Assembly (NCBI RefSeq): GCF_900090145.1
Contig: NZ_FMHI01000024.1
Span: 1 to 64,000 of the forward strand
Origin: Streptomyces sp. WMMB 322
GTDB lineage: Bacteria > Actinomycetota > Actinomycetes > Streptomycetales > Streptomycetaceae
DNA length: 64,000 bases
Direction: 5' to 3'
The notes under the pieces are model-generated. The model had not been told where the DNA came from and did no database searches. It saw only the letters and a program-made list of their open reading frames with translations. The position numbers and the translations under genes are program-made. Below are positions 1 to 2,841 of this stretch, in pieces. How positions within the stretch are numbered: the stretch's first letter is position 1; each line of letters starts with the position of its first letter.

Positions 1-309
1 GACGCCGGCCATCTGGCCTCTGCGGCCGGACTGGTGCCGGTCCCGCGTGACTCCGGGCGCCGCACCGGCAACCTGCACCGGCCCCAGCGCTACAGCCGCC
101 GCCTGCGCCGGGTGTTCTACATGTCCGCGCAGACCAGCATCATTCGCGAGGGACCGAACCGGGACTTCTACCTCAAGAAGCGCGGAGAGGGCTGCAAACA
201 CGTCCAGGCCATCATCGCCCTGGCCCGCCGACGAGCGAGCGTGATGTGGGCGCTGCTGCGTGACGGAAGGGTCTTCACCTCCGCCCCACCGGTCACGCAA
301 GCCGCTTGA
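1..309 (+). CDS. IS110-family transposase, C-terminal part (5' end outside window)
   Basis: The reading frame is open from base 1 to the TGA at 307-309, giving 102 residues of the C-terminal Transposase_20 region of an IS110/IS116/IS902-type transposase. Typical marks are the AGLVPVPRDSG segment near the start (the family's proposed catalytic serine lies in such a segment), then a basic stretch and the FYMSAQTS and FYLKKRGEGCKHVQA blocks. IS110 enzymes join a RuvC-like DEDD domain to this serine-containing domain and recombine DNA under guidance of an element-encoded RNA. The N-terminal DEDD half lies to the left, so it cannot be judged whether the copy is intact. The fold assignment is confident; activity is unknown. 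Confidence 0.85.
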   Translation, partial: DAGHLASAAGLVPVPRDSGRRTGNLHRPQRYSRRLRRVFYMSAQTSIIREGPNRDFYLKKRGEGCKHVQAIIALARRRASVMWALLRDGRVFTSAPPVTQAA

Positions 310-574
310 TTTCGTCATTGAGACTCCTGCGGGGCGGGCGACGGGTCGGGCGGTTCGGGACGACCGTAGAAGTTGAAGTTACCTTGAAGTCAATGGTTCG
401 GTGTGCGGGCACTCCGTTCGTCGGCGGACGTCACCCGGGGCACCGCGGTACGCCCTGCTCCCGTACCGCTCCGATGTCGGCCGGAAGCGGAACCCGTGGA
501 CTCCGGGTGATGGGTGATCAGCCCTCCGCGAGGGGCTTTGACCGGCTGTGATGGCACAGCGACAGGGTGTCGTG
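310..574. other. Intergenic: probable right flank of the IS110 element
   Basis: There is no convincing coding sequence between the transposase stop and the repeats in front of the DUF397 gene. The stretch should include the right end of the IS110 element. IS110-type elements often lack clear terminal inverted repeats, and I could not fix the boundary. Related elements encode a guide RNA in a non-coding end, so this interval is a place to look for one, but I see no diagnostic structure. Confidence 0.4.
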
Positions 575-610
575 CACGTGCATCGGCACATGCATAAGCA
601 CATGAACGGG
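575..610 (+). promoter_or_regulatory. Three 12-bp direct repeats (CACRTGMA core) upstream of the DUF397 gene
   Basis: Three head-to-tail 12-mers can be read: CACGTGCATCGG (575-586), CACATGCATAAG (587-598) and CACATGAACGGG (599-610). They end 85 bp before the DUF397 start. The same CA[CG][AG]TGCA core at the same 12-bp spacing recurs at 1814-1837 between the ATP-binding gene and the XRE regulator gene. I infer an operator for the XRE protein encoded in this set; no footprint data are available here. Confidence 0.6.
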
Positions 611-695
611 GCTATGATCCGGGGCAGTTGAAGGACAACGGTGTCCCCACCGCGCACTGTGCGACACCCCCCACCGCACCAGCCGGGAGATCCAA

Positions 696-935
696 GTGCC
701 TCACCCGTACAACGGCATGGCCGCCAGGGACCTGCACGGGGTCGAGTGGCAGAAGAGCCGGCACAGCAACTCGCAGGGAACCTGCGTGGAGTTCGCGAAG
801 CTCCCTGGCGGTGACATCGCCGTACGGAACTCGCGCTTCCCGGACGGCCCGGCGCTGCTCTACACACCCGCGGAAATCGAAGCGATGCTTCTCGGCGTCA
901 AGGACGGCGAGTTCGACCACCTCGTGCAGGACTGA
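696..935 (+). CDS. DUF397 domain protein
   Basis: A 79-residue protein that is essentially a single DUF397 domain: a WQKSRHSNSQGTCVEFA block, a VRNSRFPDGPAL block and a terminal helix. The GTG at 696 is used because a purine-rich GGGAGA lies at 684-689 and the first residues match the family. DUF397 proteins abound in Streptomyces beside XRE-DUF5753 regulators, as in the whiJ- and abaA-type loci, where they are thought to modulate the partner regulator. Here the matching XRE gene lies about 1 kb downstream, past a convergent ATPase gene. The molecular activity of the domain is not established; it resembles the antitoxin-like half of a pair. Confidence 0.85.
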   Translation: MPHPYNGMAARDLHGVEWQKSRHSNSQGTCVEFAKLPGGDIAVRNSRFPDGPALLYTPAEIEAMLLGVKDGEFDHLVQD

Positions 936-1135
936 CCCCGCTGCGGCAGCCGGGCCGTCAGTGAAGACGCCTTTTTTGCGGCGGAGGTTGAGCCGTCCGC
1001 CGGCGAATCACGGAACACGACGGCCGGCCCCGGCGCCGTTCCGGCCGCCTCGCACTCCGGCGCCCTCACGCCCCGGAGCCGTGACTCCCGTGCCGCGGGT
1101 GCGGCCCGCCAGGATGCGGCCTGCCCGGGTGCGGA

Positions 1136-1651
1136 CTAAAGGGGCCGCACGGACGTGAGGCGGAAGAGCGCCCAGACGACCTTGCCGCGCATCATGCCGG
1201 TCATCGGATGCCAGCCCCAGCCGTCGCTGAAGGACTCCACGAGGCACAGACCCCGGCCCGACTCGGCGGTGAAGTCCCCGTACTCGGTGCAGTTGTTGGT
1301 GGTCTCCGGCGGCGCGCCGCTCGGGTCGCGCACGGCGCACACCAGCCGTGACGCCCAGCGCATCAGGTCGAGTCTCACCGGGGAGGACGGGTCGGGCACC
1401 GGGGTCGGCGGAGCCGTCAGTCCGTGTCGCAGTGCGTTGGTCACCAGTTCCGAGACGACGAGGGCGACGGTGTCGAACTCGCCCTCCAGCCGCCAGCGTT
1501 GCAGCGTCTCACGGGTGAAGTCCCGTGCACTCTTGACCGCGTCGAAGCGAGCCGGAAGTGCACAGGTGGCGGACCCGGAGACGGTCGAGTGGTCGAGGTG
1601 CGGGAGGCCGCGCCACAAGGGCTCCAGCACAGTCGATCCTTCGGTCCCCAT
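1136..1651 (-). CDS. ATP-binding protein, GHKL/HATPase (anti-sigma-factor-like)
   Basis: A 171-residue single-domain GHKL ATPase of the RsbW/SpoIIAB-like group common in Streptomyces. The N-box can be read as VSELVTNALRHG, followed by a DPSG motif in the G1 position and a GRGL...V block for the G2 motif. The frame is open well upstream of 1651, but the conserved PARFDAVKSARDFTRETL region begins shortly after the ATG at 1651, so that start is preferred. It is divergent from the XRE gene and convergent with the DUF397 gene. Together the three make the XRE/DUF397/ATPase set of WhiJ-type regulatory loci. Whether it binds a sigma factor is unknown. Confidence 0.8.
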   Translation of the reverse strand: MGTEGSTVLEPLWRGLPHLDHSTVSGSATCALPARFDAVKSARDFTRETLQRWRLEGEFDTVALVVSELVTNALRHGLTAPPTPVPDPSSPVRLDLMRWASRLVCAVRDPSGAPPETTNNCTEYGDFTAESGRGLCLVESFSDGWGWHPMTGMMRGKVVWALFRLTSVRPL

Positions 1652-1813
1652 GACGAGCCACTCCTGGCGTTCGCGGCAGTGATGATCCTGTGTGGATCCG
1701 GTCGAATTGCTGTCCCGATTGGTCTCGCTGTTCCTCGGTCCCCGTACCCCGTCTTCCACAACTGCCCTGACATGCAGTGCACTTGTCCGGTGCCCATGGT
1801 TCCCAATGCCCAC

Positions 1814-1837
1814 GGCAGATGCAAGGGCAGATGCACG
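1814..1837 (+). promoter_or_regulatory. Two 12-bp direct repeats (CAGATGCA core) in the ATPase-XRE divergent promoter region
   Basis: GGCAGATGCAAG (1814-1825) and GGCAGATGCACG (1826-1837) are adjacent and followed by TGCAC; a related CATGCAGTGCAC lies at 1771-1782. The core and 12-bp period match the repeats at 575-610. The site sits about 100 bp before the XRE start, inside the 284-bp divergent intergenic region, and is a plausible shared operator. I saw no clear -35/-10 pair. Confidence 0.55.
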
Positions 1838-1935
1838 TGCACGCGAGACTTTCGATCGTGTGTAATCACCCGGGCACGCAACGAAGCGCATTGATGGCAC
1901 ACTTCCTTCAGAGCAGGGTGAAGGGTTCCTCGAAA

Positions 1936-2841
1936 ATGGAGACACAACCGGCAATGGGTGTGAGCGGCGGCGCAATCGGGGCGAGTGGCTCAAGCGGGTC
2001 GATGGTGCGGCGCATCCTGCTCGGCTCTCAGCTCCGCCGCCTCCGAGAGTCCTGCGGCGTCACCCGCGAGGCGGCCGGTTATTCGATCCGCGCATCCGAA
2101 TCCAAGATCAGCAGGATGGAGTTGGGCCGCGTGAGCTTCAAAGCCCGTGACGTGGCCGACCTGTTGACGCTCTACGGAGTGGTCGACGAAACCGAGCGGG
2201 AGCCGCTGCTCGGGCTCGCGAGGGAATCGAGCATAGCCGGGTGGTGGCACAGCTACAGCGACGTGCTGCCCGGCTGGTTCCAGACGTACGTCGGCCTGGA
2301 GGGGTCCGCCTCCCACATCAACACCTATGAAGTGCAGTTCGTGCACGGCCTGTTGCAGACGGAGGAGTACGCGCGCGCCGTCGTCACCGCCGGCCACCAG
2401 AGCCACATCCCGTACGAGGAGGTCGAGCGCCGCGTCGCCCTGCGCGCCGAGAGGCAGAAGCTGCTGTCCGGTGAGAACGCCCCGAAGCTGCTGTGCATCC
2501 TCGACGAGGCCGCGTTGCGCCGCCCGTTCGGCTCGCACGAGATCATGGACGCCCAGCTGCGCCATCTCGCCGAGGTCTCGGAGTCGCCCAACATCACCCT
2601 TCAGATCGTGCCGTTCGAGCTGGGCGGTCACCCGGCCGAGAGCGGTGCCTTCACGCTCCTGCGCTTCCCCGAGTCCGATCTGAACGACGTGGTGTATCTC
2701 GAGCAGTTGACCAGTGCTCTTTACCTGGACAAGAAAGATGAAGTCGCCCACTATGACCAGGTGTTGAGCCGACTGGTGAAGGACAGTCTGTCCCCCGTGC
2801 GCACGCGCGATCATCTTCAGGCAATACGCCGGCTCGGCTGA
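1936..2841 (+). CDS. XRE-family regulator with DUF5753 domain
   Basis: A 301-residue regulator. Residues from about 25 to 85 form an XRE helix-turn-helix (SQLRRLRESCGVTREAAGYSI, then SESKISRMELGR). The rest matches DUF5753, with the usual blocks FQTYVGLEGSA, FVHGLLQTEEYARAV, EERVALRAERQ-like and FELGGHPAESGAFTLLRF. Upstream in-frame starts exist, but the ATG at 1936 has GAAGGG ten bases ahead and gives the family's normal length. Proteins of this class (WhiJ-like) are DNA-binding repressors paired with DUF397 partners. The 12-bp repeats in front of this gene and the DUF397 gene suggest it controls both. No ligand is known. Confidence 0.85.
   Translation: METQPAMGVSGGAIGASGSSGSMVRRILLGSQLRRLRESCGVTREAAGYSIRASESKISRMELGRVSFKARDVADLLTLYGVVDETEREPLLGLARESSIAGWWHSYSDVLPGWFQTYVGLEGSASHINTYEVQFVHGLLQTEEYARAVVTAGHQSHIPYEEVERRVALRAERQKLLSGENAPKLLCILDEAALRRPFGSHEIMDAQLRHLAEVSESPNITLQIVPFELGGHPAESGAFTLLRFPESDLNDVVYLEQLTSALYLDKKDEVAHYDQVLSRLVKDSLSPVRTRDHLQAIRRLG

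Follow-up and report, generated by a model that had tools for sequence, protein, structure and literature searches.

A conserved TGCA array with a 12-bp step in two inverted copies as the probable operator of a WhiJ-like XRE regulator in Streptomyces

Pairs of XRE regulators and DUF397 proteins were earlier proposed to be type II toxin-antitoxin systems and are treated as regulators in PMC6262351 and PMC10364602. In the literature covered here, the operator of WhiJ9 from Streptomyces venezuelae is the only one described for such gene sets. SPR demonstrated that this XRE protein binds to three direct repeats in the iosA-whiJ9 intergenic region, which follow the consensus CGNNCTCAAC (CGXXCTCAAC) and of which DR3 dominates the affinity (PMC10294661). 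WhiJ9 activates the divergent iosA and is consistent with autorepression; when whiJ9 was lost, its own transcript rose just 2-fold (PMC10294661). PMC4255298 describes no operator for the SCO3421 cluster of S. coelicolor, the Scr1/Scr2 paper mentions no motif, binding site, palindrome, repeat or EMSA (PMC6262351), and PMC10364602 mentions neither a motif nor a binding site. A first-pass annotation of the locus studied here had called the operators of XRE regulators with a DUF5753 domain poorly characterised, which needs qualifying in view of the SPR data on WhiJ9 (PMC10294661).

The DNA analysed here (the window) comprises the first 64,000 nucleotides of contig C4 in the 6.6-Mb genome (G000) of Streptomyces sp. 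WMMB 322. The genes at its start had been guessed in the first pass to encode a DUF397 protein, an ATPase and an XRE regulator, and Pfam confirmed all three identities (Table 1). For the ATPase, the match to PF13581 (E 4.8e-12) was obtained with 1136-1681, and the gene is translated from 1651. The XRE protein matches PF13560 (E 1e-15) and PF19054 (E 5.8e-60), both above the cut-offs, and thereby combines the N-terminal XRE helix-turn-helix and the C-terminal DUF5753 domain of WhiJ-like regulators. As is also typical of these, DUF397 and HATPase genes adjoin the XRE gene in all of the 80 relative loci that were fetched, with the order and orientation of DUF397, divergent ATPase and XRE kept throughout. 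Among the proteins of the gene set, a Pfam DNA-binding domain was found in the XRE protein only. A plasmid search with the locus gave no match. In 70 of 81 loci a TTA codon stands in frame in the ATPase gene, 64 of them at one and the same codon, at which the window has TTG (1616-1618, minus strand); judging from this codon, bldA dependence of the ATPase gene may have been lost in the WMMB 322 strain.

Table 1. Features of the DUF397/ATPase/XRE locus, in order along the window
Feature	Position	Strand	Remarks
IS116/IS110-type transposase, C-terminal fragment	1-309		contig edge, beside DUF397 gene
Operator A, before DUF397	573..607	+	TGCACGTGCA TC GGCACATGCA TA AGCACATGAAC; palindrome, then units at a 12-bp step, the third degenerate
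Probable -10 element of the DUF397 promoter, TATGAT	613..618	+	40 bp from palindrome start
DUF397 protein gene	696..935	+	79 aa, GTG start; Pfam PF04149, E 1.2e-18
HATPase_c_2 (RsbW-like / AbaA-like) gene	1136..1651	-	171 aa, ATG at 1651
Operator B, between ATPase and XRE genes	1815..1841	-	TGCACGTGCATCTGCCCTTGCATCTGC; positions 0-22 near-invariant in 81 loci
XRE regulator gene, WhiJ-like	1936..2841	+	301 aa; HTH_31 + DUF5753

Repeats at an exact 12-bp step had been described in the first pass at two places of this locus, and they are real at both blocks. Before the DUF397 gene, CACGTGCA starts at 575, CACATGCA at 587 and CACATGAA at 599, while CAGATGCA stands at 1816 and 1828 in the divergent ATPase-XRE region, always with steps of exactly 12 bp. 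Of the three copies counted before DUF397 the first two hold, and the one at 599 is a degenerate copy with one mismatch. The exact pair CASRTGCA-N4-CASRTGCA occurs twice in the 64-kb window, solely at these two blocks, and in none of 100 dinucleotide shuffles. The blocks fit better as reverse complements than in the earlier same-strand alignment on the degenerate motif: they form one operator in opposite orientations, TGCACGTGCATCkGCmCwTGCATmwG at 573-598(+) and 1841-1816(-), with identity at 21 of 26 bases. Inverse repeat arms of 36 nt are found at 560-595 and 1819-1854 (78% complementary), and operators A and B, read toward DUF397 and the ATPase gene respectively, both start with TGCACGTGCATC. 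As both blocks contain the perfect 10-bp palindrome TGCACGTGCA, at 573-582 and 1832-1841, and as this palindrome is the invariant core of each operator, the layout was wrongly called non-palindromic. The gene set has three tandem direct repeats, the third being degenerate at A and partial at B. No mention of TGCACGTGCA together with Streptomyces was found in the open-licence PMC literature.

The array is also periodic at 6 bp. In the upstream regions of DUF397 from 81 loci, the match frequency peaks at lags 6 (0.338), 12 (0.376, the maximum), 18 (0.333) and 24 (0.319), with 0.21-0.29 at the remaining lags from 4 to 25. The bare palindrome TGCACGTGCA is at background in the genome of the strain, with 13 sites where the reversed control has 14; since the palindrome alone is not enriched, specificity resides in the extended array. 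Random occurrence throughout the genome, which the first-pass annotation had held to count against an operator, is therefore true of the bare palindrome and false of the array, which is found at most once per strand in 199 genomes. A 15-bp pattern with 2 mismatches allowed gave 145 matches against 270 for its reversed control and is informative in exact matches only.

Conservation within the genus was followed in the 80 fetched loci, all from Streptomyces records except L039 (a Streptomycetaceae bacterium), which together with the window make 81. The palindrome is present before DUF397 in 79 of them, being absent in L027 and L039, and in the ATPase-XRE region of every one. Between its second TGCA and the one that follows, the distance is 12 bp in 73 of the 79 DUF397 promoters and in 81/81 ATPase-XRE regions. 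Within one species, operators A and B are identical at a mean of 23.4 of 27 bases. Positions 0-22 of operator B are all but invariant over the 81 loci (three exceptions at position 12 and one at position 13), and the flanks of the operators are less conserved than the operators themselves. An exact 22-bp pattern, TGCACGTGCATNNGCNCNTGCA, was found in 198 of 199 Streptomyces genomes with a maximum of one forward and one reverse copy, 151 genomes having both copies and 47 having one, and the reversed-pattern control gave 0 in all 199; the sole genome without an exact match (G192) has a copy with one mismatch. Among the matches listed with both copies on one contig, the two are about 1-4 kb apart and in opposite orientation.

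The pattern extends beyond the genus. With one mismatch allowed, it occurs in 16 of 17 genera of the family and, counting the own genus, in 103 of its 150 genomes. Two genera, g14 and g3, are mostly without it; as their orthologue loci carry variants like TGCACGTGAATCGACTCTTGCATCTG in place of the strict pattern, much of this gap reflects divergence rather than loss. In the genus g7, the array is often a series of TGCACGTGCA palindromes that follow each other at steps of exactly 12 bp. At the level of the class, relatives of the XRE protein (E<=1e-60) are present in 39 of 148 genomes, 28 of them outside the genus, so that the window set shares with the SCO3421 cluster, which is described as present in almost all complex actinomycetes, the feature of having relatives in other actinobacterial families. 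Loci were obtained from 19 of these 28 genomes (L269-L287). The palindrome lies up to ~1.45 kb upstream of the XRE gene in 16 of the 19, with a longer stretch adding one (L269/L299), and TGCA follows at exactly 12 bp in just 4/19 and at 13 bp in L280, L281, L284 and L287. A class-wide scan for TGCACGTGCA-N8-TGCA gave 28 places in 16 of the 28 XRE-positive genomes outside the genus, of which 22 are within 1.5 kb of an XRE relative (E<=1e-60) and 15 of those 22 upstream of it. Counted as strand matches, this corresponds to 29 against 14 for the control in the 28 XRE-positive genomes, and to 25 against 29, which is control level, in 109 XRE-negative genomes of the class.

The first-pass proposal of a shared operator in tandem form, with units exactly 12 bp apart, thus stands as a deeply conserved feature, which is moreover tied to one XRE lineage. 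In a FastTree phylogeny of 100 XRE proteins (102 loci were submitted, and the two that did not give a protein of at least 200 aa were left out), the loci with TGCA operators from the window set, the sister set described below and the class-level orthologues fall into one clade with a support of 0.943. TGCA operators are present at 60 of 68 loci in this clade and at 0 of 32 outside it, with a Fisher p of 5e-19 that takes the loci as unrelated and a clade boundary drawn after the labels were known. The eight clade members without the operator are L202, L205, L222, L227, L228, L269, L278 and L279, and three of these are partly artefacts of the stretch that was fetched: in the L205 genome, two arrays with one mismatch are located 0.4-1.4 kb away on the opposite side of the XRE gene, the L202 genome has a one-mismatch array on each strand, and the palindrome is present in the longer stretch (L299) around the L269 gene. 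L222, L227 and L228 are orphan XREs of one genus which have the recognition-helix motif of the window clade and for which no array was found in 3.5 kb and no DUF397 or ATPase match nearby.

The recognition-helix region of the XRE protein reads ASESKISRME (residues 53-62), and a structural model predicts the helix itself at residues 55-62, with a mean pLDDT of 86.9. R52, S54, K57 and R60, in or beside this helix, are identical in 68/68 clade members and are found in 2, 11, 2 and 6 of the 32 proteins outside the clade, respectively. The helix-turn-helix of the model aligns with C.Esp1396I (PDB 3clc) with a VIA-align Z of 9.3 over 75 residues and an rmsd of 3.2. Foldseek gave no match for the XRE model at E<=0.001, and a sequence search among solved structures returned nothing significant for XRE-DUF5753 or DUF397 proteins. 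The DUF5753 domain (residues ~108-301 of the model) resembles the C-terminal fold of phospholipase D / TrmBL2, with VIA-align Z values of 9.5-11 over 119-145 residues and an rmsd of 3.0-3.9. Inspection by eye showed no obvious HKD motif in it. The domain may serve to bind an effector.

Among the paralogues, a search near other DUF397/XRE pairs of the same genome, as suggested in the first pass, led in two passes to one further array with support from other genomes. The positive locus is a sister DUF397-XRE set (L113, G000:C6 ~237,700-237,800) with three 12-bp units, TGCAAGTACATC, TGCAATTACAGA and TGCAAGAACGTG, before the genes, which read TGCAAnnACAnn as one stretch. Sister loci from other genera have even longer runs of 4-7 units, with a match frequency of 0.408 at lag 12; 11 of the 15 loci L216-L230 were counted here, the remaining four (L222, L223, L227 and L228) being outside the sister clade. 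As the other paralogues, apart from the repeats of other kinds listed below, gave nothing at the thresholds used, the TGCA architecture is treated as that of one clade.

The idea that 12-bp arrays are universal in paralogues was rejected, because in the own genome the window set and L113 alone have an array that is supported in other genomes. Repeats of other kinds do occur there: three near-identical 14-bp repeats of the GCCCGGTGCGCGGG type upstream of an XRE paralogue at L117 (uncorrected), a two-copy 12-bp repeat (11/12, p 0.013, uncorrected) with a GC-rich triple at L119, a G-rich 12-bp triple at L120 (p 0.007 uncorrected, the floor of 150 shuffles) and repeats at 13-15 bp at L111, L118 and L121 (uncorrected). 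The first pass over the paralogues, which used single-base shuffles, also gave a perfect two-copy 12-bp repeat at L115, which was below threshold in the second pass, and a weak one at L123/L130. In the second pass, operator A of L132 was outside the stretch covered. Rows for L128, L130 and L134, which neighbour counted loci, and for L136, L139 and L140, which have no XRE match, were dropped.

Other targets in the genome were considered as well. A regulon defined by the bare palindrome was rejected on the counts given above, 11 of the 13 sites being outside the locus. None of these eleven loci has an XRE, DUF397 or ATPase match within ~1.5 kb, and 10/11 have no TGCA at any of the 12-bp offsets tested. 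At G000:C15:93966 (L292), a partial match to the array, the palindrome with a TGCA at -24, precedes a gene for a SpoIIE-type phosphatase, which is divergent from a GNAT acetyltransferase gene. This site was rejected as a conserved third target, since the array is missing in 14/14 relative loci (L322-L335).

The position of operator A in the DUF397 promoter is nearly constant. The distance from the palindrome to a TATSAT -10 element is 40 bp in 71 of 79 loci; the others have 52 (2), 42 (2), 53 (1) or 41 (1), and two have no such element. In L063, L066 and L094, one additional 12-bp unit is present and the distance is 52 or 53 instead of 40. No -35 consensus is found at a spacing of 16-18 bp, the best match to TTGACA being 2/6 in 59 and 3/6 in 18 of 77 promoters, which does not exceed the match at random positions. 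With the -10 element placed at -12, operator A extends from about -52 to -18 and ends just short of the -10 element. Many of the loci L021-L100 and the window also have a TTGAC-like block 3' of the DUF397 -10 element, and a TGTAAC/TGTAAT-like element recurs before XRE and DUF397 in many of the same loci.

We consider it probable that this is an ancient operator, present in two inverse copies, which the WhiJ-like XRE protein of the same gene set reads in a 12-bp tandem, with repression as the outcome and DUF397 providing feedback. Subunits of the XRE protein would bind TGCA half-sites, namely the TGCACGTGCA palindrome and the further sites at the exact 12-bp step. Twelve bp equal about 1.1 helical turns, and units at this distance are rotated by about 50 degrees (at 10.5 bp per turn), so that neighbouring subunits would be near enough to touch each other; cooperative binding is thus plausible. 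Once occupied, operator A would cover the -35 region and the spacer, so that repression of the DUF397 promoter would be the simplest result, while the second copy, operator B, would control the ATPase gene and the XRE gene divergent from it. The small DUF397 protein may then act on the XRE protein to loosen or change its binding, which would close a local feedback loop. Repression with feedback by DUF397 is favoured because of the whiJ and SCO4542 genetics (Ainsa et al. 2010, as summarised in PMC4255298), the model for the feedback reading, and because BldB is reported not to bind DNA (PMC10294661). Points against this reading are the class-level loci with a 13-bp distance, the orphan XREs without an array and the absence of a -35 element, which would suit an activator as well. 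So are the activation of iosA by WhiJ9 and the modest, 2-fold rise of the whiJ9 transcript without it (PMC10294661).

The same XRE protein might indeed use the same operator to activate the DUF397 promoter, and perhaps that of the ATPase gene, with the array replacing the -35 element and the XRE protein contacting sigma. This is possible but doubtful. The 77 promoters without a -35 consensus and the constant 40 bp between array and -10 element would agree with it; poor -35 elements are, on the other hand, common in Streptomyces. Activation is harder to reconcile with an array that extends into the -35/-10 spacer, and with a -10-proximal unit that stays in place when a whole unit is added (L063, L066, L094). 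WhiJ9 offers a precedent as the activator of iosA, but it does so from 113 bp upstream rather than from the -35 position, and near its own promoter its binding fits autorepression (PMC10294661).

The reader of the array could also be a different regulator encoded elsewhere, of a CRP-like or global kind, with the XRE gene as a mere neighbour. The 13 sites of the bare palindrome in the own genome would suit such a protein, as would the form GTGCACGTGCAY, which we take to be loosely similar to the GTG-N6-CAC site of Streptomyces Crp. This explanation is nevertheless unlikely, as a global protein would be expected to have many sites and there are at most two array copies per genome in 199 Streptomyces genomes; furthermore, the array lies close to XRE relatives in the other genera of the class, among them several paralogues of a single genome, and genomes without the XRE do not rise above the control. 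An RNA or promoter element, such as an unusual -35 or a leader, is a very unlikely alternative to a protein operator. Operator A does abut the -10 element and a conserved block follows 3' of it, but the same sequence recurs inverted in the divergent region, where its distance to the XRE start varies, three species have an array with one full 12-bp unit more, and operator A is upstream of the likely transcription start. That the repeats arose by chance or are left over from a mobile element, with no function, is hardly credible: operator A does begin 264 bp after the end of the IS110-type transposase fragment, yet the array is conserved in 198/199 genomes with less conserved flanks, and the exact pair never arose in the 100 shuffles. 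Repression by the XRE protein of the gene set remains the preferred reading.

A separate comparison concerns the spacing of WhiJ9-type repeats. The window set does not follow the consensus CGNNCTCAAC, and the pattern GTTGAGNNCGN{0,6}GTTGAGNNCG has no match in G000. A scan of the genus for two CGNNCTCAAC copies at steps of 10-16 led to 20 loci that were examined without selection by spacing. An XRE gene stands beside the pair in 3 of 4 cases with a 10-bp step, in none of the 9 with a 12-bp step and, among the 7 with other steps, in L249 only (14 bp). Seven further stretches (L251-L257) all contain an XRE-DUF5753 gene; having been chosen for their 10-bp step, they are no independent test of the step. 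From their sequences, the tandem copies of CGNNCTCAAC (two or three) with a 10-bp step beside XRE genes at L235, L237, L241 and L251-L257 are probable WhiJ9-type operators. L249, a locus with XRE and DUF397 matches, has a GTTGAGAACG pair at its 14-bp step, perhaps another spacing class. As a tentative generalisation, which we hold to be more speculative than secure, the clades of WhiJ-like regulators in actinobacteria might each use a spacing code of their own, with 12-bp TGCA arrays (2 to 7 units) in the present clade and 10-bp CGNNCTCAAC arrays in the WhiJ9-like one. Within a clade, the number of units might determine how strong a switch results from co-oligomerisation, with DUF397 proteins taking it apart. 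If so, many paralogues in one cell would be insulated from each other by each clade keeping to its own step, and the 10-bp and 12-bp arrays suggest how paralogues might avoid crosstalk.

Among the known systems, C.Esp1396I is an XRE-fold protein whose crystal structure shows a tetramer on the natural 35-bp operator and which controls its own restriction-modification system (PDB 3clc; PMC3758141). With 76 residues it has no room for a DUF5753 domain and is an analogy of mechanism only. C.Esp1396I is not known to have a DUF397 partner. The whiJ and abaA sets and the SCO3421 cluster of S. coelicolor contain the same kinds of genes as the window set, a likeness based on their description (PMC4255298), and Scr1/Scr2 (SCO4441/SCO4442) is likewise an XRE and DUF397 pair which acts as a regulator (PMC6262351). 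For this poorly understood family of developmental regulators, a concrete candidate binding site is now at hand: a 27-bp site, all but invariant within the genus and also present in other families, makes one of the more widespread sets of this kind directly testable, and the natural 12-bp expansions together with the long arrays of the sister clusters offer a handle on how spacing and copy number may tune the XRE switch. A published parallel is WhiJ9, with which the window set shares a WhiJ-type XRE gene beside a BldB/DUF397 paralogue and tandem direct repeats in a divergent intergenic region (PMC10294661). The two differ in their units (TGCA here, CGXXCTCAAC there), in the recognition-helix motif and in the number of sites, with one site there and two inverted copies here. 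Tandem direct-repeat operators for this kind of regulator are thus already known from WhiJ9, and the TGCA sequence, palindromic core, 12-bp step and inverted two-site layout of the present locus constitute a different variant.
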